From Odontesthes bonariensis (lineage: Eukaryota > Chordata > Actinopteri > Atheriniformes > Atherinopsidae), in NCBI RefSeq assembly GCF_027942865.1, contig NC_134515.1:24512227-24576226 (forward strand): a DNA stretch of 64,000 nucleotides. The letters are read 5' to 3'. Positions 13,991-55,200 of the stretch are shown in pieces. A model generated the notes under the pieces. It saw nothing but the letters and a program-made list of their open reading frames with translations, was not told the origin of the DNA and did no database searches. Every line of letters starts with the position of its first letter. Positions within the stretch are counted from its first letter, which is position 1. The position numbers were made by a program, and so were the translations under genes.

Positions 13991-16486
13991 ATGGAGCTGG
14001 AGAGGACTGAAGACATGGATGACCTAAGCTGTAATCTTGAAAAGTGCGTCTCTTCCTCAATACCCCCTGGATGGATTAGAGAGGTGAGGCAGCGAAAAGC
14101 AGGGAAGACAGCAGGGAAATTGGATGTCTACATAATAAGGTGCCTCTGTGTTTTCTAAATAATTCTTTGTCCAAATTATTACTGCATGAAGTGCATCACA
14201 GATGCAGCTAGGTCAATGTCTAAAGGATTTTTCTCTCGTTTCAGTCCCAGAGGGCAGAAGTTCCGGTCAAGAGCCTCCCTGCATGCTTTCCTCTTACAAA
14301 GTGGAGAAGGGAAGTTGGATATAGGCCTTTTTGATTTCACCACGTCCAAAGATGAGTTCACTACCTCACAAACACCCTCTTTAAGAGAAAAGCAGAGGAG
14401 ACGAAAGAAAAAGCAGGCAAATGGAGAGCAGGAGCAAATGGATGAAAAGCTGAATCCTCCCCCAAATAAATCTCAAAGAGCCTCTTCCTCCCACAGAAGT
14501 CCCCCTAAAGACCGGAAAGTAGAGGCTGCAGAAGATAGTCGCTCTATTAATAGTGCTGTTACACGTGTACCAGAGGTTTGTGAGGACGAAACAAATGAGG
14601 CTGCAAAGGGCTGCTCAGAGACTGCACCTTCAGTCTTAGAGAAGGATGTGAAAGTGCAGAAGAGCCCTCAGAGGGTGGGGCTACTGAGAGAGAAGCTGCT
14701 CAGGTTGGCTCCTTCCAATAATCATCAAAACACCTTGTTTTTTCACAAGAGTGAACAGACACACTCACAGCCTTCTGTACCAACTCTGAATGTTGAAGCC
14801 GCCACTGAGACCGAGAACGAAGACGAGACAGTGCCAGACACAGATGGCACGCAGGTTCACAGCGACGTCGGCGGTGTATCTAATTCTGAAGTGGAGGCTG
14901 ATGCTGACCGTCCTCGAGATGAGAAAGAGGAGGTGTTGTTACCCAACATCTCTAATGGAAGCTGCACACCTGTAAGAGATTCCCAGAATAGTAAGTGCGA
15001 TCTACACAGCTCCGGAAAGTTTTTAATTTCAAGTCTTTATTTTATTTTGATCTGTGCCCATCGTGTGTACGTACTATAATCCCTACAGTTTCAGGTAACC
15101 TTTACTTTCTTCAGCTATATATACATTTACGTCTCTAATAAATCAAATAGATGAACTTATACATAAGGGCACATAGGTAAGTCTGATATTGTAATATCTC
15201 CTTTACTGATTTCCAAAGTGAAGATGTGTTTTCAGTGACATTTGTGGATCTATCCACTTGTCCGAGAGAATGATTATGGAAATAACTACCAAGCCAAGTT
15301 TCATTAAACTGACCACTTTCTGGTTAAGGTTTGCTCTCTGACTGAACTTCCAGGTTGTAGGATGTTTTAGGACAGACGTGATTTTGTCAAATTGGACATG
15401 ACTTTGCTCTCCTCGTCGTTCGTTCGTTTTATTGTTGTCTTCTAGGAAATTCCTTACATACGTTTCATATATACAAATGTTTCCTGTTCTCTTACAGAGT
15501 CCAAGAGCTTGGAAGACAAACGAAAGACAAGCCCCTATTTCAATGGGAAAACACACAGAGATGGTAAAGTCTGATGAGTGTATTTGATTCAAGAAGCTTG
15601 TGGAGACATCGCTGCACATCAGCATTTATGAGATGACATGTGCGTGGTTTTAGTGACATGTCAACTGTCTACGCTCAGGACTCAGCCCACCCAGGAGAAA
15701 AGCCTTCAAGAAATGGACGCCCCCTCGATCTCCCTTCAACCTTGTACAGGAGACCCTTTTCCATGACCCCTGGAAGCTCCTCGTGGCCACAATTTTTCTG
15801 AATAAGACAAGTGGTAGGATCCGCATGGTGCGCATTAACGAGCACTGAAATCTCAAATCTTTCATTTCATTTCACTTCTTCTTCTTCTTTTTTTTTTTTG
15901 GTCATCACAGGTAAGATGGCCATTCCAGTGCTGTGGCAGTTCTTTGAGCGTTACCCATCTGCAGAGGTGACCCGGGAGGCCAACTGGAAGCCCATGTCTG
16001 AACTTATGAAGCCACTTGGACTGTACGAGCTTCGAGCCAAAACACTCATCCGCTTGTCAGGTAAACGTGCTGTTGATGGATTACTGCACTCACTTCTGTC
16101 TGCTAGGCACTTATTATAATACATGTTATCAAGGCTTTGATGTATGTGGCTTTAGAGACAAATCAGTGGAAAGAGAAAACCTCGTGTTCCATTTGCTCCC
16201 TTTTAGATGAATATCTAACTAAACAGTGGCGTTACCCTATCGAGTTACATGGCATTGGCAAGTATGGCAACGACTCCTATAGGATCTTCTGTGTTGGAGA
16301 GTGGAGACAGGTGAATGTAATCTCGGCTGTTTCACTTTTAACGGATCCAGTTTGTTTTGCAGTTTTAATTGAATCCAAATCTGACATTTCATCGGTATCT
16401 TTATGCCAAAGGTGACGCCTGAGGACCACATGTTAAACAAATATCACACCTGGCTGTGGGAAAACCACGAGGCACTGCGCATCTGA
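13991..16486 (+). CDS. mbd4: Methyl-CpG-binding domain protein 4, DNA glycosylase (7 exons, 474 aa)
   Basis: MBD4 excises thymine or uracil opposite guanine at deaminated methyl-CpG sites in the nucleus. Exons: 13991-14139, 14245-14990, 15498-15563, 15679-15813, 15911-16060, 16207-16310, 16412-16486, phases consistent. The N-terminal MBD is at residues ~23-85 ([15 protein letters not shown], then [19 protein letters not shown] across the first intron). A long low-complexity linker is encoded mostly by exon 2. The C-terminal HhH glycosylase is at ~325-474, with [20 protein letters not shown], the helix-hairpin-helix [15 protein letters not shown] and the catalytic aspartate in [19 protein letters not shown] (about D455, matching human D560). 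Human MBD4 is 580 residues; the shorter linker explains the difference. Exon 2 has an alternative read-through past 14990 that ends quickly. Divergent neighbour: ift122. Confidence 0.96.
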
Positions 16487-20458: not shown

Positions 20459-23400
20459 CTAGTGTCCCTTTAGAAATCCATCCAGCATGTAGTCTCCTTT
20501 CTCTGTCAGCCAGTATCCAGCCATAGCAGCCACTCCTCCAATGAAAATGGCTGTGAAGACCATGTCACCCTTAGCAGCGAGCGTAGCTAGGGCGCAGATG
20601 ACAACGCCGAAGAACATCTGCTGCAGAACGAGGACCTCATCATCAGTCATGTCATCAAAGAGACCCTTCTCAGGACCAGCTGGGGGGGAGGAAAAAAAAC
20701 AAAAAAAAAAACAGTTGACACTAAATCTACATTTAAACTGTACGCAGGTTATATCTTTCAATGAATGGTCATTTGGAAAGGATTGGATTTGTGTGTCCTG
20801 ACATCACCAACAGTCAGTTACCGGTAACTACATAGCTGACGCATCGTTTAAACTTGGTTTGAACTTATCATGCTTTATGTAAATACAAACAACAACAAAA
20901 AATAAATAAATCGAAGCACAGTCATTATCAGACAGCACTGAGGTTATCAAACAGACAGCCATTTTTACAAAATGATGGCACTGTAACTGAGCTAAAAGGA
21001 TGTTTTTTGTTAAAACCGTTTCCCTTTGGCCAACTGAACAGACCGAAAAGACGAGGCACCGCACAGCATCAGTGTTTGCACAAAGTTCACGAGCCAGCGT
21101 TACAGTGGCAGCGGTGTGGTTGATTAGAGCAGTGTGCTAAAACATTTAGGCTCTTTCCCACAAACACACGTCAGTTCTGCTCTGTGACCACCTCCATCGC
21201 TGCATAAGAGGCGAATCAGCAGTGCGTCAACTTAAGACGACAAATTCTGCCTCTGCACTGACCAACAGGATGTCGGCACAAAACAAAGCCACATCAGCGC
21301 TGCCTTTAAAGGGCAATATGAAAACGGCTGGTGAGCGCTGGTCAACATCTTGTCCGAAAGGGACACATTTCAGTAACCAGTCAAGATTATTTCTGTTGCC
21401 TCATTACAGAAAAGTTAGCGAAATGAAAAATATATGAGAGGAAAGAGAGTAGGAGAGAAGCAAACTGTCAACTGTTAGCGGAATGCAAATAACACAGTTT
21501 TAATGACGATAGTACTAAATATTTTAAATAAACCGAGAGACGAGCATCGTAGTTCAGGTCACTACTGCTACCTACCAGGAGGCTTATTCTCAACACAGAT
21601 GCTGTCTCTTCTAATGAATCCTTCAGCACAGTCACAGTGGAAGGAGCCCTCCTCATTGATGCAGGCCTCATTGAGTCCTGGGCAAGCTATTGCACGTTCA
21701 CTGCATTCATCTACATCTGCATGATGAGGCAAATAATATAATTAAAATGGCATCAGAGGAAGGTTCAAATTACAAAGAGATTAAGTAGCTAAGCAGTATT
21801 TACTCACCACGACACTTGGCCCCCTTCAGTCTGTAGCCACGTGCACATTTCTTACAGCGGGCAGGACCACTGCCCATGCAGCCCACACATGCCTGGTCAC
21901 AGCCTGCATACCAAAGCGCAAAAGTCAACAGAATAAGCATGGAATGCAAATCACGTGCTCCACACTGTGGAAAATAATCTGTTTGTTGTAAACTACAGCT
22001 AATACAAGCTTAACCACACAGGGTCTAGCTTCTCGTGGTTGAAGACTTGATGTTTCGTGTACGATACAGAAAAATACACCGAATGTTGCGTTTTTTGGAC
22101 TGAATTCAAATAAAAACTCCTTCCTAGATTTTTACGAGAACAAACCACAAATGCATACAAGCCCTCATAGTTTGTGATGAGAACCACATATAATCTTATT
22201 AAGTCACAGCTATATAGAGGCAGTTTTAAGTGGTAGCGTCACTTAAAACTTTCCCTGATGATGCTAAACAGATGGCTCAAAGACATGTGTGCTGCTCATT
22301 CTATGAACTTTATTGACAATTTCAACATCTTTTGGGGACGCAGGCACCTCTTTAAGGCAGATGGATTTCACCTTAACAAGTCATGAGTTCAGTTGCTAAG
22401 CTCCAACATTTTTTACTCTCTGCGTCACACACCAGCAGCCCCTATCAAGGACGAGACAGGACAAAACGATCCAAAACGACAGATAGGACAATGCTCTGGT
22501 GAGGGCGCCAAGACAAAGAACCTGCAAAGTCATCATCCTCATCCCAAGATAAGGAGTCTTCACCAGCCCCAACAGCCCAACAAGTGGAGTCTTCACCAGC
22601 CCCAGCAGTCCAACAGGCGGAGTCTCTCCCAGCCCCAGTGGGAAACCCCCAGCCTTCGCCCCCCCCCCGTACCCCACCCAGCCCCCAGCACTCTCCACTC
22701 ACTCACTCACTTCTGGATTTCCCGGACAGGATGAAGAGCTTTCTCAATATTGCAATACAATTGACACCACGCCAAAATCCCATATTCTTCCCCCCTAACA
22801 TCCCACCTCATCCAGCCCCTCCCATTCCACCACGTCCATCACGTTGGAAACAACCCTCAAACCAAAGTCACCAAGCCCCCCCACCTCCTCTGAATCATCA
22901 TATCTGTGAGTCTGACTGATATGTGCCGGGTCCAGGCTGTAATACTGATATCAAGAATGCTCTTCCCCAGATAAAGTCAGGGCCCTATGGAGTTCAGACA
23001 GCCTTTTCAATCCCTGTGATGATAGGAAACAGAAAAGTGGTCAAACTGGTGAGAAATAAAAAAGGTTCAGTTAAATCTACCAATCTATTGAATATAGTGT
23101 GTCAACCCCGAAACGCACCAGTATCACCTGTTGTCTCCACGAGATTAGCCCTACTCAATATCAGATCACTAGCCAACAAATCCCTCTTAGTAAATGACAT
23201 GATCATGACCTATAATCTGGACTTTTTATTTCTTAGTGAAACATGGCTGACTGAATGTAGCTGTGATACCATTCTCAATGAGGCAGCACCAACAAATTTC
23301 AGTTTTATCAATAAGTGTCAAAGTGGTAAGAAGGGCGGGGGAGTTGCCGCCATTTTTAAAATCAGTCTTTCAGTGCAAAGAAATTTTACTTGGTGATTTT

Positions 23401-26400
23401 AGCTCTTTTGAATATCTCTGTTTTTTAGTAAAGGGGGATCCAAAAGTTATCTTCCTAATCATTTATAGACCACCAAGATACCCAGGAACTTTCTTTGATG
23501 AGTTTGCTGAACTGCTGTCAGTTATCTGCACTGACTATAACTTCTTTATCATAACTGGGGATTTTAACATTCACATGGACAATAACATGGACACTAATGC
23601 CAAAGAACTCTGCTCTCTACTTGACACTTTTGGCCTCCTTCAACATGTGAATGGACCCACACATACTCGAGGCCATACACTGGATCTGGTTATCTCTAAA
23701 GGTGTTGACATTTCTTCTGTTGATATCAAGGACTTGGCGCTCTCTGATCATTTCTGTGTGTTCTCTGACTTACAGTTAACTCCAAACATTCAGTTAACCC
23801 GTGTGTCTGTTAGAAAAAGGTACATAAATGAGAATACCAGTGCTAAGTTTATGGAAGTTATAGCTATGTCATCAACTGCGAGTGCAGAGACAGTTGATGA
23901 ACTCTTAGATAACTTTAACTTGAAACTCTCAAATGTCATGGATACTGTTGCACCTGTTAAAAATAAGATGATCTTGAGCGGAAAGCGAACACCATGGAGG
24001 AACACTATTATGGTAAAGGCCTTGAAAACAGAATGCAGGAAAGCAGAGCGTAAATGGTGAAAAACTAAACTTCAAATTCACCATGACCTCTACAAACAAA
24101 GTCTTTGTAATTTTAACCACGGGTTACTCCGGGCTAGACAGCAACACTTATCTGAAATGATAAATAAGAACATCAACAACACTCGTGCTCTGTTTGCTAT
24201 GGTTAACAAGCTGACAACCCCCCCAAAACAGATAGTTTCAGAACTCTGTTCCACAGAAAAATGCAATGAATTTGCTTGTTTTTTCAATGAAAAAAAAAAA
24301 TCAAATCTATAAGGCTAAATATCAACATAAATGAGCAAAATAATAAAAATGACGCAATCCTTAAAACCACCTAGGAATCAATCAACTATGATGTCAGAAT
24401 TCAATACAGTTGACCAAAAAACCATAGAAGAAACAGTCCAGCATCTTAAACCATCGACATCCTGTCTTGACACAATGCCATCTGACTTCTTTAAAACTAT
24501 TGTAAGCTCTGTCCAAACAGATTTGCAGCAAATAATAAACTGCTCACTTCAATCAGGCACGTTTCCTAAACCCTTAAAAGTAGCTGCCATCAAGCCACTC
24601 CTAAAAAAAAAAAAAAAAGAGAACATTGGATGCTTCCATTTTAACCAACTACAGACCCATCTCAAATCTTCCTTTTATAGCCAAGATTGTTGAGAAAGTG
24701 GTTTTTAAATCAACTCAGTAACTTCTTGAACTCCAGTGGACTCCTTGACAAATTTCAGTCAGGCTTCCAACCTCACCACAGTACAGAAACGGCTCTTATT
24801 AAAGTGTTAAATGACATAAGGTTGAACACTGATTCAGGCAAGGTGTCAGTTCTGGTATTGTTGGATCTCAGTGCTGCATTTGACACTGTGGATCACAGTA
24901 TACTGCTGAACAGGTTGGAAACCTGGGCAGGACTCAGCGGGATAGTCCTAGAATGGTTCAGGTCCTACTTGGAGGAGCGGAGTTATTTTGTGACTATTGG
25001 AAGTAATCAATCTGATCGAGTGGCTATGACATGTGGAGTTCCTCAGGGGTCAGTTCTTGGACCCCTTCTGTTCACTCTATACATGCTGCCTCTGGGTCAA
25101 ATTCTGAACAACTCTAAAGTCAACTACCACAGCTATGCAGATGACACACAGATATATCTCGCACTGTCTCCAGATGACTGCAGTCCTATAGAGTCATTGT
25201 GCGACTGCTTAGAGCAAGTCAAAAAGGGGATGAACCAAAATTTCCTTCAGTTAAATCAAGAAAAAACTGAGGTCATTGTGTTTGGCAACAAAGAGAAGAG
25301 GTTTGCTGTCAGTAAACATCTTGAGTCACTGTCTCTAGAAACTAAAGACCAAGTCCGGAACCTCGGCGTGCTGATAGACTCAGACCTGACCTTCAACAAT
25401 CATATCAAATCAGTCACCAAATCAGCCTTTTCTCAACTTAAGAACATATCCAGAATTAAGAGTTTCATGTCCCAAACAGATCAGGAGAAGCTGATTCATG
25501 CTTTCATCTCCAGCAGACTTGACTACTGTAACGGTCTTCTGACTGGACTCCCCCAAAAGAGTCTCAAACAGCTGCAGCTCATTCAGAACGCTGCAGCCCG
25601 AGATTTAACCAGAACAAAGAGATCACATTACATCACCCCAGTTCTCAAGTCTTTACATTGGCTCCCGGTCAGATACAGAATAGATTTTAAAGTTCTGCTA
25701 CTCGTCTATAAATCACAGAATGGTTTAGGTCCAGAATACATGAATGACATGCTAGCTAAGTATAAACCCAGTAGAGCTCTGAGATCTGCTGACTCAGGTC
25801 AGATAGTGGAGCCCAGAGTTCAAACTAGACACGGTGAAGCAGCTTTTAGCTGTTATGCTGCACACAACTGGAACAAACTACCAGCAGAACTGAAATCAGC
25901 CCCAACTGTAAGCACTTTTAAATCCAGGTTAAAAACATTTCTCTTTCGGTGTGCTTATGGTTGAGTTTATATCTTTCTTTTTCCCATCTTCTTTGATTGC
26001 TTTTAACTGTGTTTTTAATTTTTATTCTATTTATTTATTTTTTCTTTAAATTGCTGCTTTATGCTGTTCTTTTAAATGCCTTGTCTTTATGTAAAGCACA
26101 TTGAGTTGCCTGTGGTATGAAATGCGCTATATAAATAAAGATGCCTTGCCTTACATGCATCGATTACATAAAATCCACAAATCATCAAAAAGTGGCAGAA
26201 TCATTTGGACTGACAAAGTACAGTACATGTAAAACAGGAACTGTACCAGGGAGCGTACCTCTGCATTCATACGATCCATCCGTGTTGTGACAGTAGGTGT
26301 TGGAGGCACAACGAGCCAGCTCTGTGCCGCACTCATCGATGTCTACAAGGCATAAATGGGAGGTCAACATCCATCCGCAGCTTGGCCCGGAATCAATGAG

Positions 26401-29400
26401 ATGTTACCAAATGACCTCTAAAGCCTCACTCACCTACGCACTTGTTGTCATGAAGGATCCAGCCGGGTTTGCAGTCGAGGCATTTATAGTCCTGTGGCCC
26501 TGAGCATTTCTTACACGAGTGGAAACAGGCTAAAATGGATGAGAGCCATAAGTACAGGGAGAGGGTCAGTTTTAGATGAGTGCAAACAGGAAGAAAAATA
26601 CAGGCAGACAGCTGCGCGAGGGTGAGGCACCTGCACATGCTCCTATGCTGTCATTGGAGCTCTTCTCTCTGTAGTAGCCATCCGCACAGCTCTGGCACAG
26701 ATGGCCCGAGTATCCCGGATCACAGACGCACTCTCCATCTCCGAGGCGAGTACCCTCCCCCTCGCATCGGCCCAGACCTCCACACACACCTCCAGGTCCA
26801 GATGGACACTCTACATTGGACAAACATGCAAGTCTCTAAGCCAGAGCTTTGAAATGATGCGTTTTACATTTGAACGCATTCCCACCTTTGCAGGCGGGTC
26901 CAAAGCGTCCGGGCGGACAGCAGAGTCTCAGCTCCTCTATGCACAGCCATTCAAACAGGTCCGGTGCCTCTTGCTGCCTATAAAACAAGCACAGCATACT
27001 GGTCATGGACGAACAAGATCACACAGCTGCAGTCAACACGTTCCTAATTTTAGTTTAAGGGTTATTTACAAGTTGAAAATAAGTAATCCAAATATAAGAC
27101 AGACTACTTATACCCCCTGTCTATCTTCTAAATCCATTCTGAAACAGCAACTTGTGGAGATTTAATGCTTTTACCTGTGGAACCACCACGTCTCCACTTG
27201 GTCCTCTATCTGCTCCAGCAGTCCGTTACATTCAAAATCTGTTTTCTCACAAGCAGCCTCTACTATTTCTAGAAGCCGAGTCTCACTGAAACAATACGAC
27301 AAGAAGAAGAAAAGTAAGATTTTAGTCAAATAACAGAACACACGTTGACCTATGCCACCAAAGATGACATAGCCTCTCTCTTGGCCACCATTCTCTTTAT
27401 TTAAAATAAACTATCCTACGTCATCATTCACTGTTATGGCCCTGGATGGAGTAATTATGGCGATTTACCCCCCCCCCCTTTTTTTTTTCTAAATGCAAAG
27501 TTGGTGCTTCAGTGCCAGACGAGGACTGGCTTCCTCAACTTTTCTGCCCGCCTCCTTAAAGAGCCAATAGCCTTCTGCACCAACCGCTGGCTCACAGCTC
27601 TTGTTTAAAACGCTCCTGGGGTCCGTTTCACGTAGCAGGTTCAACCAACTCTGAGTCTATTCCTGATCTCTGAGTTGATCTACTCTGAGATAGAAAACCC
27701 TGAGTTTTCGGTTCCAGAAACGCTGATTTGAGTGAGGTTAATCAACTCTGAGTAAGTTCACCTTGAGTTTAGCGCGTACACCACAACTTTAAAAAGCCAG
27801 CATCAACGGAGCCCCGATTCGACGAGTCACCTTGGCAACGGGGAAGAGGAGGGGCTACGTTTTTCACCAACCTCGAATTGGAAATCTTAATGCGCTCATA
27901 CGGCGAGTTTCAATACGTTTTTAGACATAAGTGCAACACCGTTGCAGCAGCAAAAGTGTAAGTTTAAATGTAGTCCTTTGCAATCACAATAATATTACAG
28001 GGAAACTGCTTGAATGGTAGCCCATTCATTTATTTCATTTAGGTGCAATCCCGCAGGGGAGAAGCGCACTTGGCAGCAGTTTAAGATGAAATATAAAAAT
28101 ATTGTTCAAACAGGTGAGACCTCGGCATGGAGGTACCTCATTTTGATCATGTTTTACACTGTAAAATAAATATTAAGTGGCTATTTGACTGTGCAGTTAT
28201 TTTATTCCCAACATAATGCTGTTTTCACACACATAAACTATGTCTTCTCATCTATATCATCCATCCATCCATTATCTATACACCGCTGAATCCGTCAGTC
28301 GGGTCGCGGGGGGGCTGGAGCCTATCCCAGCGGTCAATGGGCAAGAGGCGGGGTACACCCTGGACAGGCCGCCAGTCCATCACAGGGCCACACAGAGACA
28401 AACGAGACAAACAACCATACACACTCACAGTCACTCAGAAGGACAATTTAGAGTCATCATCTATATCATGTTCTGTTAAATAATTAAGCCTATTTAAACT
28501 AACACAGATTTCTACTGAGCCAACAGAAAGAAGGCAGATGCCCATAAAACGGGTGGTGGCCACCACCCGAGGGAAGTGGCTGAGGGAATCCACCCCCAAG
28601 ACACGAGTGCCTTTATAAAATATAATAGGCCTATATATGTCTTTTTTAAGCCTATTCATACAAATATTTATTTGTCTTTTATGTCTTTTTTTTTCTTTTG
28701 TCCTGTGGAGGGGGACGTGGTGCATCAGGTGCAGAGGAGAGGTGGAGAGGTGGGAAGAGCTCGGAGGACGGTGGGAGGGGAGATGATTGGCACACCTGTA
28801 CATCGTCGGCTAATCATTCTCCCCTTTATCAGTAGCGTGCTGGTCCAGGCGGGAGAGAGGGGATGAGAGATCGAGGACGGAGCCAAGAGAACGGAGAAGC
28901 AGAAGACGAGCAGAGCAGGAGAGCGGGTGCTCGTCTTACCGTTGGGCTGAGAACCTCGATCAAGAGAGAAACGAATAAAAATCATTGCAAACCAGACAAC
29001 GGGCTCTGCGTGTGTGTTGGGTGAACCCACGGTGGCAAACAGACGTGTCACACTGGCGCCCAACTGATCCCGACACAGGATGTCAGAGCCGGAACAGCCC
29101 GTGCACGCATTGGCAGGAATGCTCACAGAACTCGCCAGGATGGGCCAGGACCAAGCCGCCGCGAGCAGACAACACCTGTCAGCGCTGCACACGCAGGCGG
29201 AGAAGCAGACGCGGCTGCTGGAGGCGATGTTGGCTCGAGCAGGGGCAGGCACACCGGGCCCCTCACTCGCAGGAATGACTGTGCACAGGATGACAGCTGA
29301 GGATGACGCACAGTCATTCCTGGACATGTTCGAGGCAACAGCAACGGCGTGTGGCTGGCCCGCGGCGGAGTGGGCGGTGCGGCTGCTGCCGCTGCTGTCA

Positions 29401-32400
29401 GGGGAGGCGCAGACGGCGGCGCTCTGCCTGCCAGCCTCCAGCCGAGGGCGGTACCGGGACGTGAGGCGGGCTGTCCTGGACCGCCTCGGCTTCTCCAGGG
29501 AGGACCACCGGCGGAGGTTCCGGGAGATAAAGCTGGGGCCCAACGACCGCCCGTTCGTTTTCGCCCAACAGCTGAAAGACGCTGCAACCAGGTGGCTGCA
29601 GCCAGGGGGGTCGGCGGGGGAGGAGCTGATGCTGGAGACGGAGGTCCTGGAGCAGTTCACAGAGGGGCTCCCGAGCGACACCTCGGCCTGGGTGCGGTGC
29701 CATCGCCCGGCGGACCTGGCGACGGCCATCACGCTGGTGGAGGACCACCTGGCCGTCCACTCCCGTAACCAGGCGCCGGTGGTTCGGCCAGAGCCTTTTA
29801 CCCGTCCCACACCGGCACCCCGCAGGAGACCTCCACAGCCACCCGGACCACCGTTCAGCACAGCCACCCGACCCACCCCGCTTCCCCGGTCTAACCAGCC
29901 TTCTCCTTTTCTCCCGCCACAGGGCCAGCGCGCTGCAGACACTGTCCTCAGCCCACAGACGGTCCCTCAAGCGGCAGTGCAGGAGTGCTGGAAGTGCGGA
30001 CGACCCGGGCACTTTCGCCGGGAGTGTCCGCTCATGGAGGTCGGTCAGGTGATCCGGGTCGTCGGCCCTGCAGCACCCTCCGCCGGTCCGGGAGGGACGT
30101 ACAGCGTTCCGGTAAGGATTCAGGGGGGTACACATCAGGCGATGGTGGACTCAGGCTGCATGCAGTCCATGGTTCACCAGAATCTGATTCGGCCCGGGGC
30201 TTTGATGGAGGCGAGCTGGGTGGATATTAAGTGTGTGCATGGGGATATTCACAGATACCCTGTTGCGTCAGTGGAAATTCGATATAAGGGGAAAAAGCAT
30301 AGAGTGAAGGCTGCGGTTAGCTCCCGCCTGGCGCACCCTCTTATTCTGGGTACTGATTGGCCGGGGTTTGATAAGCTAGTGGGGCAGTGTGTGGGGGTGC
30401 GCTCACGACCAACAGGAGTAGTGGATATGTGCGCTGTGCTCAGCGGTGACGCGAGGTTGTCCGACGCTGCAGACGGGGAGGGGGAGCCGGCGGCGCCTCC
30501 ACAGGAGGCTCCGCAGGTTCCCGTGTTTGACTCCATGGAAGATTTTCCACTTGAACAGTCTCGTGATGATACTCTACGCTTTGCCTTTGACCAAGTGATA
30601 CGAATTGATGGTCAGATGGTGCGCCCTGACGCAGCGGTATCATATCCACACTTTTCATTACGGAGGGACAGGTTATACCGAGTGAGTCGTGACACTCAGA
30701 CTGAAGAGATAATTACCCAGTTGCTGGTACCAAAAAGCCGCCGGGAAATGGTTTTCCAGGCGGCTCACTACAACCCGATGGCTGGGCATATGGGGTACGA
30801 AAAAACACTGAACCGGGTAATGGCCCGTTTCTATTGGCCTGGCATTAGAGCGGACGTTCGCCGCTGGTGTGGGTCCTGCGCTGAATGCCAGTTGGTTAAC
30901 CAACCGGCCATCCCGAGAGCGCCGTTGCGCCCGTTACCACTGATCGAGGTCCCGTTTGAACGGATCGGGATGGACCTCATCGGGCCATTTCACCGGAGCA
31001 CACGTGGATACCGATTTGTGTTAATCCTGGTGGATTACGCAACTCGATATCCAGAGGCAGTGCCGCTGCGCACCATCTCCGCAAAGAGTGTGGCGCAAGC
31101 GCTGTTTCAGCTTATCTCCCGAGTCGGGATCCCGAAAGAGATCCTGACTGACCAAGGCACCCAGTTTATGTCACGAACACTGAGGGAACTTTACGGATTA
31201 TTGGGCATCAAGTCTATTCGTACCAGTGTTTATCACCCGCAAACTGACGGCCTCGTCGAGCACCTGAATAAGACTTTGAAGTCCATGGTCCGTAAGTTTG
31301 TGCACGATGATAAGCCAAATTGGGATAAGTGGCTAGATCCTCTGCTGTTTGCAGTGCGCGAGGTTCCCCAGGCCTCCACGGAATTTTCTCCCTTTGAACT
31401 GCTGTTTGGCAGGAAACCACGCGGGGTTTTGGACCTGGTAAAAGAAAGCTGGGAGGAAGGTCCGAGCCCCAGTAAAAATGAAGTTCAGTACGTCCTGGAC
31501 CTGAGAGCAAAACTCCACACACTGGGTCAGTTATCACGTGAGAATTTGCTCCGGGCCCAGGAACGTCAGCAGCGGCTGTACAACAGAGGATCTAGGCTGA
31601 GACAATTTACACCGGGAGATAAAGTGCTTGTATTACTCCCATCTCATAACTCTAAATTACTCGCCAAGTGGCAAGGGCCCTTTGTGGTCACACGGCAAGT
31701 GGGTGACGTTGACTATGAGCTTGTGCGATCTGACAGGGGAGGTGCGACACAGATTTACCACCTCAACCTCCTTAAAGCATGGAGGGAGGCAGAGCCTGTT
31801 TCACTGGTGACGACAATTGCAGAGAGAGATGAGTTGGGGCCTGAGGTGCCAAAATCGACCAATCCCGCCTCGCTCCTTTGTGAGAACCACCTCTCTCCGT
31901 CACAGAAAGCAGATGTAGCCAAGTTGCAGCAGCGGTACGCTGATGTGTTTTCCCCCCTGCCAGGACGCACAAGCCTTATTCAACACCACGTGGAGACTCA
32001 CCCGGGTGTGACAGTGCGTTCACGACCCTATCGGTTGCCTGAACACAAAAGAAAAGTAGTTCAGGCAGAATTGAAGGCCATGTTGGAAATGGGTGTGATA
32101 GAAGAGTCCCACAGCGCCTGGTGTAGTCCCATTGTTCTTGTAGTCAAGAAGGATGGGTCTATTCGGTTCTGTGTGGACTATCGCAAGGTGAATGACGTTT
32201 CACAGTTTGACGCCTATCCTATGCCCCGGGTCGACGAGCTCCTGGATCGCCTTGGCACAGCTCGATTTTTTACGACGCTGGATTTGACCAAGGGGTACTG
32301 GCAGATTCCCCTATCTCCAGAGTCCAAGGAAAAATCGGCCTTCTCCACTCCGTACGGTTTGTACCAATTTGTTACACTTCCGTTCGGGTTGTTCGGGGCC

Positions 32401-35400
32401 CCAGCCACGTTCCAACGCCTCATGGACCGGGTGCTGCGGCCGCACGTTGCATATGCTGCCGCCTACCTGGATGACGTGATCATCCACAGCAACAGCTGGG
32501 CGGAGCATGTGCGGCAGGTGGCCGCGGTGCTCGAGTCACTGAGGCAGGCGGGGCTCACAGCCAACCCGAAGAAGTGTGCAGTTGGACGGAGGGAGGTACG
32601 GTATCTGGGGTACCACTTGGGCGGCGGGCAGGTGCGTCCGCAGGTTGACAAGACAGCAGCGATTACAGCCTGCCCAAGGCCTAAGACAAAAAAGGAGGTG
32701 AGGCGGTTTCTGGGGCTGGCCGGTTACTACCGGCGTTTTATTCCCAACTTCGCCGAGCTGACCAGCCCCTTGACCGACCTCACCCGAAAGGGTGCCTCAG
32801 ATCCGGTCCAGTGGACGGAGCTGTGCCAGGTGTCGCTTGAGAGGGTAAAACAGACCCTCTGTGGGGAGCCTCTTCTTCACACTCCTAATTTCTCTCTCCC
32901 GTTTACTCTGCAGACTGATGCATCGAACAGAGGGCTGGGGGCCGTTCTGTCCCAGCAGGTGCGGGGTGTCGACCGCCCAGTGCTCTACATCAGCAGGAAA
33001 CTGTCCGAGAGGGAGGCCAGGTACAGCACCGTGGAGAAGGAGTGCCTGGCCATCCGGTGGGCGGTCGATGCTCTGCGGTACTACCTGTTGGGACGTCCAT
33101 TCACCCTCTGTTCGGACCATGCTCCCCTCCAGTGGCTCCACCGCATGAAAGATACGAATGGCCGGATCACCCGATGGTATCTGGCCATGCAGCCTTTCAA
33201 ATTTAAGGTGGTCCATAGGCCGGGGACGCAGATGGTCGTGGCCGACTTCCTTTCCCGCTCCCACAAGGAGGGGGGGGGGGGAGTAGGTTAGGCCGGACAG
33301 CTCCCCGGCCTAAGTCGGGCGGTGGAGGTATGTGGAGGGGGGCGTGGTGCATCAGGTGCAGAGGAGAGGTGGAGAGGTGGGAAGAGCTCGGAGGACGGTG
33401 GGAGGGGAGATGATTGGCACACCTGTACATCGTCGGCTAATCATTCTCCCCTTTATCAGTAGCGTGCTGGTCCAGGCGGGAGAGAGGGGATGAGAGATCG
33501 AGGACGGAGCCAAGAGAACGGAGAAGCAGAAGACGAGCAGAGCAGGAGAGCGGGTGCTCGTCTTACCGTTGGGCTGAGAACCTCGATCAAGAGAGAAACG
33601 AATAAAAATCATTGCAAACCAGACAACGGGCTCTGCGTGTGTGTTGGGTGAACCCACGGTGGCAAACAGACGTGTCACATGTCCCAACACATTCTGATGG
33701 TGCCGCTCAAAAAGATAATTGTCTGTCAATGCAAAAATCTATGCGCGGTCTGATAACCATCTCCGACGAATATTTATTTCTCTGCGCAATAATGCTGCAC
33801 CTTCATCCACGGATCGTTGTCAAAGGGATATGTTCGTGAAAAAAGTTGCCTCCTACTGTGCCTAATGGACTTCTAGAAGTAGAAGAACTCGCTCTGCTGA
33901 ATGAATGAATGAGGAAATCAAATGGCGTGTGTGGCTGAAAGAGGGCAGAGACAGAAAGAAACTCAAGGTTTCTTGAATAAAACCTGGTCCCGACCAGGTT
34001 AGGTTCAGAGAGTCTGTTACTCCGGTAACTGACCGTGAGGTTAAGTTACCTCTCTTTGTGAAACAGGCTAGAGTTACCCCTCTTTCTCGGGGTTGAGTTA
34101 CCTCCCTTTGTGAAACGGAAAACTCAGGGTTTCCCTCATTTCAGGGTTAACCTACTCAGAGTTTTCACTAAACCTGCTACGTGAAACGGACCTCTGGAAA
34201 CCTTCCTTTGGTGGCAGCTGTGGCTCTGAGATCAGCGTGCCCTCGGCTCACATTTGGTTTCGACATCTTGTTGTTGATTCTGTGAGCTGGCGTACTCAAA
34301 GCTCAAACTACTTCCTCGTGTTTGTTGTATTTTGGTTCAGTTGGAGACTATGAGGTGTTTTTGACAGTTCTTTTCCTAAGTGATTAGTTAGTCACTCAAG
34401 ATGTTAAGTCAGAGTCCTTTATATTTTAATTTGAGTAGCACCTCCCACCCCCAAGTTCCATTTATTCCAGTTATGTCCCCTGTTGATTTTTTTTTCCAGA
34501 ACAAACCTCCTATTACTCCACTTTAACATCTCTGCATCTTTTATGTTACTTCCTGCTGTCCCTTGCAGAGCTGGGTCGTAACATTTGAACGTAAAAAAAA
34601 AAACCTTTGAAAGGGTATTCAAAGCTGAATCACATTCTTCAGGATGACTAATAATACAAATTTAACAAAAATAAATAAATAAATAAATAAATAAAGAGAG
34701 CAGAAACAGTCCAATAATCACATTACTCGACTGGTAGGTGCATCTTTAAAGCACACCACGTCCTACCTCCGAGCATACTTGGCCAGCTTCTCCTCTTCCC
34801 ATGCAGTGTTGCCTCCTCCAAAGTTCTTGTTGGCTGTTCTCTCCAAGCCCTACAGAAGAGGGAATTTTAGAGGCCATATGTATGAAAAGAAAAGGTAAAA
34901 AAAATTTTTTTTTTAAAACGCTGCTCAAAATAGGAAAACTGATGGTTGACCAATTTAAATGCAGTACCTTAATAAAATTCTCTGTGAGTTTTCGGCAGGT
35001 CTGGCATGGCGCTGTCTGGACTTTCATCACAGAAAGCTCAGAGAGAAGAACCAGCGCAGGCAGGGAAGGCCAGGCCCACCACATGGTCCTTAGGATGACA
35101 AGAAGACGGATGGATACAAACACATTTAGAGGTGCAAAGGAACTAAATGCATTCATTTGATCCCTTTACGCATCTACTGTTTTGAAGTTTTAGTTTTCGC
35201 TTGGGCATTTCCATATTGCAGTTTCTACTCAGATAAAATTATTAGACTCCAGCAACTGATTACTTTTAAGATGAAAATGTAAACAACGTGCTCCAGACGT
35301 CTGACAAAAAGCCGTGTTTGGTCGGGGTCACATATCAGATGTAGCGTATGTGACGGGAAATGATTAACTTCTAACATGGATTTGCAAGATTTAAGGACCT

Positions 35401-37500: not shown

Positions 37501-40500
37501 TCAGACCCATTCCATTTCACTGTCCTTAGGGTCGGTGTCAGGGCTGGATGGGGGCGTAAGAAGACATGGCTGTAAGGGCACAGTTTCCCCAGAGTCTTCC
37601 ACTCCCACACCAACACAACCCTGTGACACTCCAGCAAGTCGTAATACATTTGTCCCTGCTGTGAACCCCGACAGTCTTTGGGCCAGAGTGCGGGATGCCA
37701 TCCTGAGCCCCCCCGTCCTTTTCCTTCTGGCTGATGCTGAAGCCATTTGCTTAGCTCCAGCTAGTTCAGTCAGAAATCCCAGACTCTGAGATGGAAGGCT
37801 GTAGACATGAAGGCCGCGGAAAAGTTGTGGCAGTGGTCTGAAACTACCTGGAGGCTCCGGTGGGAGTGATTCAAACTGCACCAGCATAAACCGCTCACCG
37901 GCACGGCCTTGTAAATAGTCTGCTAGAATACAGCTCAGAGAGGCACCAAAAACATCCAAATGGCGAGAAGAGGCAGGGCAGCTTCCTCCTGTCCCCTTGT
38001 CCTCCTCCACATCCCTGTTCTTCTCTCTGGGGGCATACCTCTCGCAGCTCTGAGCTCCCCATTCTTCGGCCCTGGTCCAGGTGGCCTGCGTTAGGACTAG
38101 CACTACCTTGCCCCCCTGCCTTTGCAGTTGGTCCAGTCGGGAGTGGAGCCATGGCACAGGGCCCAGCATGCCGAGCTCAGCCTGGCTCCACAGGTCCAGG
38201 GACACAGTGAAACCCAGGGCCTGGAGAGATGAGCCCAGGTGACACAGCAACTCAGGCAGATGCTGGTCATCATCATCAGGCGGGTAAAGCAGCACCACAT
38301 GACCACCACCCAGAGCAACTGAAAGAGAGGGTAAAATACTGACTGAGGTCGTTATAATCAAATACAACGTGAATACTGAATTAAATATTTTCTAACATGT
38401 TGTATCTCATATTTGAAAAAAGGTAGCCATGTATGCTAGTAGCCCTATTTTCAACAGGCAGATAAGGGCCTGGCCAAAAAAAAAAAAAAAAGGTCCATAA
38501 ATCTTCTATTTATGGGAGGTAGAGCTGGATGTGTTTTAAGTTTTTTCAGACCCATGTCTGAAAATGATGTATTACGCTCCCCATCACAATTTCACAATTT
38601 GAGCCAGATGAATTATTACGTTGTCATCTTGGAATATGCCTGTGCCACAAGGGGAAATAATCTATTGATGTTAAAACATTGTCATTCAGTGGATTGGGCT
38701 AGTCAGATGACCTCATTGTTTGGGCACATAATGTTGCCAAACTTAGACCTGACCAACTGAAGCAACCGAAATGATTAGTTTAGTTAAAGGCATGGTTGGT
38801 AATCCTGTTCAGAAACACATTTTGTAATACTGGGTGAAATGGTCCGTCTGTCCTGAGAGAAATCTATACAAGATGTATTTAGAAAAAGGGACGAAAATAA
38901 TCAGACCTCTGTGGCAGCTGCAGGACTGAGAAAAAGCTGACCAATCCGAGATCAGCGTCCCGCTGATCTCGGATTGGAGCGCCTACAAAAACCAATCAGA
39001 TGCCTCTGCTTTCTGCCTACGCCCCCCTCTGTCGGCTCCCTGCTCCATGTGCGCATGCGGTTCTACCGGCTTTGGATGAAGCACTGACGGAATGGGGAGG
39101 GGGGGGTGGAGCTTAGAGGAGGGGACACTTTCGAATCTTGCTAGCTCTCTTGCTAGCTCTCTAGGATTACCTACCATAGCTTTAAATCAAAGTGATGACT
39201 ACTTTTTTTTTCAGACAGGCAGTGTATAAGGTTGTTGTAGAAGCTGAGTGAACATTTCATCCCAAAGGTGTTGGAGTAGCAATAAAGCTCTTCTATTTAC
39301 TCCATGTGTAGCTGGAGATTTTTACCTCTTCAGAGTATGAGGGTGGTATTATCTAATTGTCTGGTTTGCACCAGTAGTATATTTGTCGTGTCACTCCTTT
39401 AATCTCTTAAGGCCCGAGCTCTTGTTTGATATTATTTTTTTATTTCTCTTTGCTTTTTGGGCTTACTGGACCCTCAAGTATAAAAAGTACACATCTGTAT
39501 GTACGTCTGACATCGCTAGATGGGAGTGTAAGTGTCCACAGACGTGGCCATAAGGCCCCAGTTAAGCAGAATCAACTACTGTGGCAATTTAACCCAAAAT
39601 GCGGACCCGAGGTCCTAAGAGGTTTTTTTTCCTTTTACGAAGTACAAATCTGTGTTATAAACCATGTTAAGGAGTTTTGGAAAATAGTGTTTGGTCTCTG
39701 AAATTTCCTCGTACCTTTCACGTCGTCTTCTTTCAGCCATCTCCAAACGTAGCCTGGATGGAGCACACAGCTTATATTCAGATGTTTTCTTTAGATTGCA
39801 ATCATCAAATAATCAAAGGCCAAAACAAGAAAAAGCTGACCTTTTAGGACACCTTGTATGAAATAGGCTCCAAATACAGCCAAACACATCAGTGGCAGTC
39901 CGATGAGGAGCGGCAGGATCCATCTCACTCGAGACCCTGGAAAAAAATGTGCAGATTTTTATGAAGCATGTCAAAAGGTTTCAGAGATAGTGATGTTATT
40001 AAAAACTGGCAAAAAGAGCAGTGAACCATGTGTCATTTTCCCCATAAGAATGAAAAATAGTGACTGTTTTCAGATTTGATGACTTATCAGATATCCCAAA
40101 TCTAATGTGGATTCGTTAATAGTCTTACTGGCAAACGGACAGTGGGGCTCCAAGTATGACTCCATCCCTTTTATCTTCATCTAAAGAATTGAAACAGCAT
40201 TAATGTCACTGTACTCTGTACTGCAGGAAGTACAAAGCAATTACAATGACATATCTGATAGAATATTTTCACATTTATTAGGCAGCAATACAAATCTTAC
40301 CTGAACACAAAGCAGAGGATGGGATGATACGTTGAACTCTCCTGTTTGCTGAAAAATAAAAAACCAAGTTAAAAAAAATATCAATCAATAGCATCAATAA
40401 AGAAAATCAGGATGAGTCATAAAACCTTCCCACAGAGTTGAGACTGAACATAAAACTTTGGCCATTTGAGACATCATTATCATTTTAACTGAATGGGTTG

Positions 40501-52294: not shown

Positions 52295-55200
52295 TTAAAG
52301 CTTCTCTGTTCTCCACGATGACCTCGGAAGAAGCTCTTGCTCCTGTGCGCTTCGCAGCCTGGTAGCCGGTGAAAACTTGTGTCTGCTCTGTGTCTGATCT
52401 GATGTCATTGTCGCTGATGATGCGACACTTAGTCCTTCCCCTTTATGTCCTTGCATGTGAGGTAGCAGTGTTTGCAGTCTTTGAGCAAGCTGACGTGCCA
52501 GCCATATAGACAGCACTTTAGAAAGGAGTCTGGGCCAGCAGTGGCCACTGAACTCACCAGTTTTTGGTCCTTTGCTCACCTCTCCCAGCTCCTGAATTAA
52601 ACCACTCAAATCCTGCGGTAAACAGTACCGAGGGACACCTCTGAGGACCTTTGGGATGTCCCTGTTGTGGCAAAGGCCGTGGAAATAGACGATGGCAACT
52701 CCTTGAGCTTTGCAGTCCTGCAGCACCCCCTCTAAAGAGGTCAGGGCAGCCACAAATACCAGTTCTATCACTGTTGAAGGCTCCTTCTTCGAGTGCCTGT
52801 CTTCATCATCCCAAAATTCAGTAAAAGCTTTCTCTTTTTTGCATTTTCCCAGTTTTCTTCCACTCAGTTTTAAATCCTCGTCCGCGTCTACTCTAATTTT
52901 CTCATGTGTCATGCTTGCTTTCCTGCAATCTTCCTTTTTGCTCTCATTCTTACCAATGTTTGCCCTCTCCTGCCTCCACTTAAGGTAAGTCCTCTTGGCT
53001 TCAGGACTCCAAACAATCAGCACTTTTCCTTGTGCCTTACGGACAGCTTCCCACTGACCGTACAGCCAGGGAAGTGGACCCAGATCAGCCACGCCAGGCC
53101 CGCTCCCAGCAAGCCTTTGTGAGCTCTGAGCCCACAGAGCTGTGTGCACCGTGGCACCGAGCTCCTCCTGAAGCAGTGAGGCCAAGGCACACACAGCAGA
53201 GACATGGGTCGAATCCTCCGATGAACACACCAGGAGCAATGGCTTCTGGATAATCAGCCAGCCTACACATGTGGGAGATGACAAGAGGACAAGGAGTGTT
53301 GGCTGACGAGGACACGCAAAGGCAATGATTGTAAAATAAAACCTTTATGCATAAGGGAAGACAAGCTTACCCGCACCTCCATTCTTGGTGACACGGTGGA
53401 TGAAAAATCCAAATAACACAACAACGGTCAGAAATAGCAAAGCTGCTGCTGCATACACCCCCCATCTGTGATGTGCGTCTGTATAAACACAGAAAGCAGC
53501 GGGTTCATTTACTTTGTGGGAGCTGAATGTCCGCTCATGCATTAACTGGCGTGCAGTCTGGCACAGTCAGAGCTCATGTGTGTATCTTGTATAGACTTAC
53601 AGTCCGGGCACAGAATTCTCCTTCCATGAAGAGCAGGATGTGACTGCCACACCTGCAGAGAGGATGATTGACAGAGTGAGAGCAGAGAAAATGTCACGCA
53701 CCCGGACCAGATATACATAGTCAACCATGCAAAACGTTACCTGTACACATGGCTTCTCAGTAAGACTGTAAACGGGCACATTTATCCTTTTTTCAGAGGT
53801 ATTTCTCTCCTGTAAAATGGATTAAAGGAGTCACACACATTCCTGGTTGCAATTTTCTTCTAGCAATCTTGCAGAACTTCAAATATCTTTTTAGACAAAT
53901 GCAAATTTATCAATTTCATATAATTAGATGGTTTGAATAGCCGTTGAGTCATAAAAAAAAGCACAAGTAAAAGAAATGTACAGAGTGAAATAAAGACACA
54001 ATCGTATAATGCACCACTGATAAAATGTACTGGCACCCTTCACTAATATTTGTTGAAAGAAACTTTGATTTAATAATGACAACCTCCAACTACTTCTTGT
54101 AGCGATCTAGAAACTATTTAGTGAAGTTTGTAGAAGTTCTATTTGGCAGATTTTGGCTCTCTCTTGTGGGGCCTACACGAGGACTCTTTACTGGGCAATA
54201 AAAACACTCCTTTCCTTTTTTTTTCTGCTGATGGATGTGTGGATGTGCTGATCATATTGAGTCTTGCTGAGAAACACCCAAACCACAACCCTTTCTCTTT
54301 CCAATACTGCTATAGATTTTGCTGAAATATCCTCCGATTGACAATTTCTTTGACATTTGCACTGTTTAACATGTACAAGATGCAGCCCAGTAGTCCCACA
54401 GCATAATATAACCTCTGACATGATTTACTGTGGAAAGGTTTTTTTTTTTTTTTTTTTTTCATCATTTGGTCACATAGAAACAAACTGATGCACTGCATTC
54501 CCACAGAGGTTAACTTTGGTGACCTCTGTGCATGTGACCATGAGACTGCAGCTCTCATGGTCACTGGCTCAGTCAGGGCGAGTCCTGGCAGCTCACTGCT
54601 TGCACCTGGCCACACAACCAGCACAGTACTGATGGCTGATTTAGCAAGTTATATGTATGTACCTCATTAAAGTAAAAATAAAAATAAAAAAACTCTGTAC
54701 ATGTTAAAAAGGTTTAAAAAGAAATTGCTGAGGGGGACATTTAAGATATTTTGCAATTGCCTTTTGAATTGTTATAGTTTTTCATAATAATTGTTCTGAT
54801 CGGTGAATTGAGTTCATGTGAAAACTGAAATTAGGTAAAGATGAGTCTTGTTTGTTTCTTTCTGAGGAATACATTTCAGTTCACTGAGAGGGTGCTAATA
54901 ACAATTTTCCCAATTCATTTTCCCCCATTGAATACACAAATTATTCATGTTGTTTTCGATAATTTAATAAAACTACTTTTAAATCACACAAACTTGGTTA
55001 ATTTGCACCGATTGTTTTGTGCCTAACATCTATACTAACCACTGTTACAGAGTGGACTGTCCCCATAGGTGTGCATCCCTTCTCAGTGAGGACACAGAGC
55101 TGAGTGGAGAACTTTGCTGGGGAAGAAGATGTGAGAAACACCGATATGCTTTGTCTTCCTGGTCCAATATATGTCTCCCATGGAGACATAACTGAGGGAC

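Follow-up and report, generated by a model that had tools for sequence, protein, structure and literature searches.

A probable Gmr1-type LTR retrotransposon of Odontesthes bonariensis with integrase upstream of reverse transcriptase and signs of recent insertion

In the pol region of Ty1/copia retrotransposons integrase precedes the reverse transcriptase (RT). Goodwin and Poulter are said to have published, in 2002, the founding description of Gmr1 from cod. Passages of PMC8220671 place the integrase of Gmr1 elements usually upstream of the RT, as in copia, name cod and a tunicate as hosts and assign an annelid family to the Gmr1 clade; a passage of PMC2774666 likewise calls the position of the Gmr1 integrase copia-like. 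Extracts of PMC3587641 present four elements from crustaceans that are akin to the Gmr1 clade and one from gilt-head bream whose structure is that of Gmr1, and those of PMC4131045 put the Gmr1-like elements of Silurana at about 200 copies and find a SCAN domain in more than 50% of Gmr elements and in no other elements. The vertebrate SCAN domain is linked or traced to a Gmr1-like Gag in parts of PMC4592553 and PMC3424704, and a section of PMC11117352 describes Gmr elements of tetraodontiform fish, whose Gag and Pol are fused, and raises the possibility that the Gmr1 among them is active. Here we describe a long terminal repeat (LTR) retrotransposon in a 64,000-nt stretch of the Odontesthes bonariensis genome (assembly GCF_027942865.1, contig NC_134515.1, positions 24,512,227 to 24,576,226; hereafter the window). 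We are confident that it is a complete and recently inserted Gmr1-type (Ty3-class) element in which integrase came to lie between protease and RT, most likely by a single old relocation.

Between its two LTRs the element carries one open frame (Table 1), in which we observed the order Gag-protease-integrase-RT-RNase H. When the 1403-aa frame was scanned with Pfam profiles in four pieces, the hits at E 0.001 were, from one end to the other, SCAN and zf-CCHC; gag-asp_proteas and Asp_protease_2; Integrase_H2C2, rve and Integrase_p58_C; RVT_1, RT_RNaseH_2 and RT_RNaseH. The E-values of RVT_1 (6e-33), RT_RNaseH (2e-36) and Integrase_H2C2 (1e-21) are so low that a chance match is excluded. The motifs follow the same order: the integrase HHCC spans AAHYNPMAGH (residue 561) to CGSCAEC (597-603), the catalytic residues are D632 (in MDLIGPF), D691 (LTDQGTQF) and E727 (GLVEHLNKT), the last two therefore being in D-x35-E spacing, and KWQGPF stands at residue 863 in the integrase C-terminus. 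They are followed by FCVDYRKVND (1030), YPMPRVDELL (1046) and YLDD (1129) of the RT, by TDAS (1279, with D1280) of the RNase H and, near the end of the frame, by ADFLSR. A preliminary description of this DNA had already proposed the order protease, integrase, RT, RNase H within a single frame and had named a profile scan of the frame as one check; that scan put integrase before RT. The motif positions given there (D-S-G at 357, HHCC, D632, D691, E727, GPY/F, YLDD at 1129, D1280) were correct, and its coordinates for the whole element proved exact, as judged from the LTR pair and the open frame.

Comparison with the sequences of solved structures placed both halves of pol on one protein chain, the Ty3-G Gag-Pol of yeast Ty3 (7q5b). 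The integrase piece matches residues 1072-1443 of this chain (E 4e-31), whereas the RT/RNase H piece, for which it is the best named solved relative, matches residues 560-1009 (E 1e-91); the latter piece also matches PDB entry 4ol8 (E 4e-92), which we take to be the Ty3 enzyme. Both blocks are homologous to those of yeast Ty3, in which RT lies ahead of integrase, but, since they fall on one chain in reversed positions, they are swapped relative to Ty3. The frame gave no match at E 0.001 to RVT_2, presumably the Pfam model for copia-type RT, and its RT and RNase H fit RVT_1, RT_RNaseH and RT_RNaseH_2 instead. On this ground membership in Ty1/copia was rejected, although the order integrase before RT is shared with Ty1/copia as a passage of PMC8220671 presents it.

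The SCAN region of Gag also matches SCAN-type chains in PDB, the best being 3lhr (Zinc finger protein 24; E 3e-9). With the Gmr1 group, as described in parts of the papers cited, the element shares an integrase upstream of RT in a Ty3-class pol (PMC8220671, PMC3587641), the class of its RT and RNase H being given by the Pfam and PDB sequence matches, and a SCAN-type capsid domain in Gag (PMC4131045, PMC4592553, PMC3424704). It is shorter, with 4976 nt and 1403 aa, than the tetraodontiform Gmr elements listed in a section of PMC11117352 (6058-6465 nt, Gag-Pol of 1506-1634 aa). Because of the integrase-first order, the SCAN-type Gag and the grouping with a second integrase-first lineage that carries SCAN (see below), an assignment to the Gmr1 group is supported. 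The preliminary description had reached the same Gmr1-type reading. It had also called the RT Ty3-class and not Ty1/copia, and on this point the evidence of Pfam profiles and solved structures agrees. Its remark that an integrase-first order is known in the Gmr1 group held, while the restriction of that group to deuterostomes did not, given the crustacean elements in the extracts of PMC3587641 and the annelid family in those of PMC8220671, both of them placed by clade. Gmr1-clade elements are reported, in the passages cited, from fish, frogs, a tunicate, crustaceans and an annelid (PMC4131045, PMC8220671, PMC3587641, PMC11117352). The element is a well-formed member of this already described group; its order will not surprise a specialist, and no published view is overturned by it. 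Its SCAN-type Gag is relevant to how the SCAN domain of vertebrates originated.

The integrase-first order is no one-off of this locus. A protein search with the integrase piece gave 2840 hits, in the best 120 of which the domain order was scored by the best BLASTP hits of the element's integrase and RT pieces. Both domains were present in 107 of them, 106 reading integrase-RT and one integrase-RT-integrase-RT; the latter, protein P0065, is made of two integrase-RT units in tandem and is not a case of RT before integrase. The remaining 13 show just one of the two domains. Named hosts among these 120 are ray-finned fish (including sturgeon and gar), coelacanth, turtles, frogs and a salamander. 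The nearest of the matches listed, P0001 of Centropristis striata, has the same order and reaches an identity of 93% in integrase and of 94% in RT/RNase H. In contrast to the frame in the window, it has 1083 aa and is listed with neither a SCAN nor a knuckle domain; its annotation is that of an uncharacterized protein.

The assembly that contains the window (945 Mb, 187 contigs) was scanned with Integrase_H2C2 (150 of 2402 candidates scored) and searched with the LTR (40 of 373 candidates scored), and copy numbers are accordingly lower bounds. Thirty loci from the Integrase_H2C2 scan were retained for order scoring: 18 read integrase-RT, eight RT-integrase (L010, L011, L028-L033), and four contained integrase alone (L009, L018, L021, L036). 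Close kin of the window family account for 16 of the 18; the other two, L037 and L038, are 37% identical to the window element in integrase and about 42% in RT. L038 carries a SCAN domain and is overlapped by L039, a 3.3-kb locus that reaches beyond it. L037, L038 and L039 represent a second, divergent integrase-first lineage in this genome. The best 120 of the 3898 protein relatives of L039, scored with the same two pieces, all read integrase-RT, some with a partial integrase only, and Gadus morhua protein P0295 is among them; the best 120 of the 7427 relatives of L029, a standard-order locus, all read RT-integrase. Among vertebrate proteins the integrase-first order is frequent in these listings (best 120 of 2840 and of 3898). 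With two integrase-first lineages beside standard-order Ty3-class elements, this genome is a reasonable setting in which to study how the integrase came to move, and how many times.

Trees of RT and integrase were built from 50 rows, namely 43 hand-picked proteins, the window element and six loci. The proteins and the window element were taken from the 241 rows (240 proteins and the window) that passed a coverage filter, and five further picks that failed it (P0125, P0181, P0186, P0234 and P0295) were left out. The best integrase and RT trees agree in their four groups and in uniting the two integrase-first lineages. In the RT tree the window and L039 lineages join with a Shimodaira-Hasegawa-like approximate likelihood ratio test (SH-aLRT) support of 98, and constraint tests rejected the placing of either of them alone with the standard-order loci L010/L011 (p 0.003 and 0.004). 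The best reading of these trees would be one old relocation, after which integrase and RT were inherited together. By eye, and unscored, the sequence leading into the HHCC is similar to the linker between RNase H and integrase of standard-order proteins, an indication that this linker was part of the block that moved. We infer that the element relocated its own integrase block together with the linker, once and long ago, from behind RNase H.

Several points weigh against this interpretation. In the integrase tree the two lineages join weakly (SH-aLRT 81), the same alternatives with L010/L011 were not rejected (p 0.10 and 0.18), and long branches meet in both trees. The rows include no named Gmr1, Ty1 or retroviral references, and P0295, the only Gadus morhua row, was counted for order and kept out of the trees by its coverage. 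Standard-order rows may lie beyond the best 120 of the 2840, 7427 and 3898 matches. Both protease profiles score under the curated Pfam cut-offs (25.9 vs. 28.2 bits for gag-asp_proteas, 20.8 vs. 24.3 for Asp_protease_2).

That the integrase-first order arose more than once in Ty3-class elements, in the window lineage and in that of L038/L039, or that an integrase was captured from another lineage, appears improbable to us. A chimera, in which a Ty3-class RT/RNase H element captured a foreign integrase instead of moving its own, would fit the low support of the joint clade in the integrase tree and the alternatives left standing there; we nevertheless hold it to be quite improbable, considering that the two best trees share their four groups and the union of the integrase-first lineages, and that the stretch before the HHCC looks like the linker of standard-order proteins. 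Independent gain in the two lineages would fit their distance in both domains; a shared position may have two origins, and two parallel relocations within one clade would also be compatible with either tree. However, both lineages have a SCAN-type Gag and are joined in both trees, firmly in that of RT, and no standard-order relative of either was found in the best 120 of 2840 or the best 120 of 3898, so that we give this explanation very little credence. A local artefact, with nested or recombined elements or a misassembly mimicking the order, found no supporting point and can be dismissed, given the uninterrupted frame, the matching LTRs, the target duplication and the recurrence of the order in 18 of the 30 genomic loci and also in database entries for which a fish, turtle or amphibian species is named. 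A single old relocation is thus the explanation that we prefer.

The ends of the element are those of a Ty3-class LTR element, with TG...CA LTRs, a primer site after the 5' LTR and a short target duplication. The candidate primer-binding site, TGGCGCCCAAC, is presumably complementary to the 3' end of tRNA-Lys, and the 30 nt after the 5' LTR, in which it lies, are identical in two other genomic copies; GGTGGAGG, a weak candidate for the polypurine tract, also precedes the 3' LTR in another copy. The target duplication, the primer-binding site and the SCAN domain are additions of this analysis to the earlier account. No envelope gene lies between pol and the 3' LTR, where the 39 nt after the frame leave no space for one; a retrovirus or an env-bearing element was ruled out for this reason.

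The two LTRs of the window element differ at one of 349 nt (LTR position 12). The LTR search of the assembly returned at least 41 matches, which, counted by eye, include nine pairs spaced 4615-4634 nt; the others are three pairs spaced 3803, 4216 and 8557 nt, 16 LTRs without a listed partner and one 47-nt fragment. In seven of the nine pairs the two LTRs each have 96-100% identity with the 5' LTR of the window element, and the other two pairs, at 84-87% and 82%, therefore represent related subfamilies. Eight of the nine enclose a stop-free integrase match within an open frame of at least 1406 aa. All five insertions examined (the window element, the C25 and C21 pairs, and the single LTRs L003 and L004) are flanked by a 5-bp target duplication. 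The LTRs of the C25 and C21 pairs are identical (0 differences in 351), and with LTRs so similar these copies and that of the window look young, although the age of the window insertion cannot be fixed firmly from a single mismatch in 349 nt. L003 and L004 are lone LTRs within intact duplications (ACAAC and GTGAG, respectively) and are therefore solo LTRs. The 47-nt fragment (G000:C21:36241865-36241911, + strand) lies 2 nt away from a complete LTR in the opposite orientation (- strand).

By analogy with Ty3-class elements we infer how this one would work. Transcription would start from the 5' LTR, and a single Gag-Pol polyprotein would be made, particles being assembled through Gag by its SCAN-type capsid domain and zinc knuckle. 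The polyprotein would be cut by the element's own protease, and integrase, in its present position, would have to be released at both ends. Reverse transcription would be tRNA-primed and carried out by the Ty3-class RT/RNase H, and the DD35E integrase would then insert the copy with a 5-bp stagger, as the observed target duplications suggest.

Table 1. Features of the retrotransposon, in window coordinates
Feature	Position	Strand	Details
LTR retrotransposon, whole	28704..33679	+	4976 nt, structurally complete
Target-site duplication TGTCC, left copy	28699..28703		Read in the sequence
Target-site duplication TGTCC, right copy	33680..33684		Read in the sequence; perfect 5-bp match to left copy
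5' LTR	28704..29052	+	349 nt, TGTGGA...GTCACA
3' LTR	33331..33679	+	349 nt
Primer-binding site TGGCGCCCAAC (candidate)	29054..29064	+	Begins 1 nt past 5' LTR
Polypurine tract GGTGGAGG (weak candidate, putative)	33321..33328	+	Immediately 5' of 3' LTR
gag-pol single open frame	29080..33291	+	1403 aa
SCAN-type capsid C-terminal domain	29500..29760	+	Gag residues 141-227; Pfam PF02023, E 4e-15
CCHC zinc knuckle	29983..30030	+	Gag residues 302-317; Pfam PF00098, E 1e-6; motif block from residue 304
Aspartic protease	30106..30360	+	DSG at residue 357; Pfam gag-asp_proteas, E 1.6e-5
Integrase	30538..31776	+	Linker from about residue 487, HHCC, DD35E core, p58-C / GPY-F-type C-terminus; Pfam PF17921, PF00665, PF22938
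RT + RNase H	31924..33261	+	Pfam PF00078, PF17919, PF17917

Antisense frames of 405, 245, 155 and 154 aa overlap the element, the longest (28725-29942, - strand) spanning the 5' LTR and Gag; they are likely due to chance in a G+C-rich coding stretch. Elsewhere in the window, Pfam and PDB searches at E 0.001 gave nothing for a 297-aa frame (14186-15079, + strand), whose start may resemble the methyl-CpG-binding domain of MBD4. The remains of a non-LTR retrotransposon lie at 23263-25964 (+ strand), with Exo_endo_phos_2 in one frame and RVT_1 in another. Two frames with SEFIR domains (37501-38367 and 52295-53284, both - strand), which we take to be probable exons of neighbouring IL-17-receptor-like genes, leave the retrotransposon outside both.

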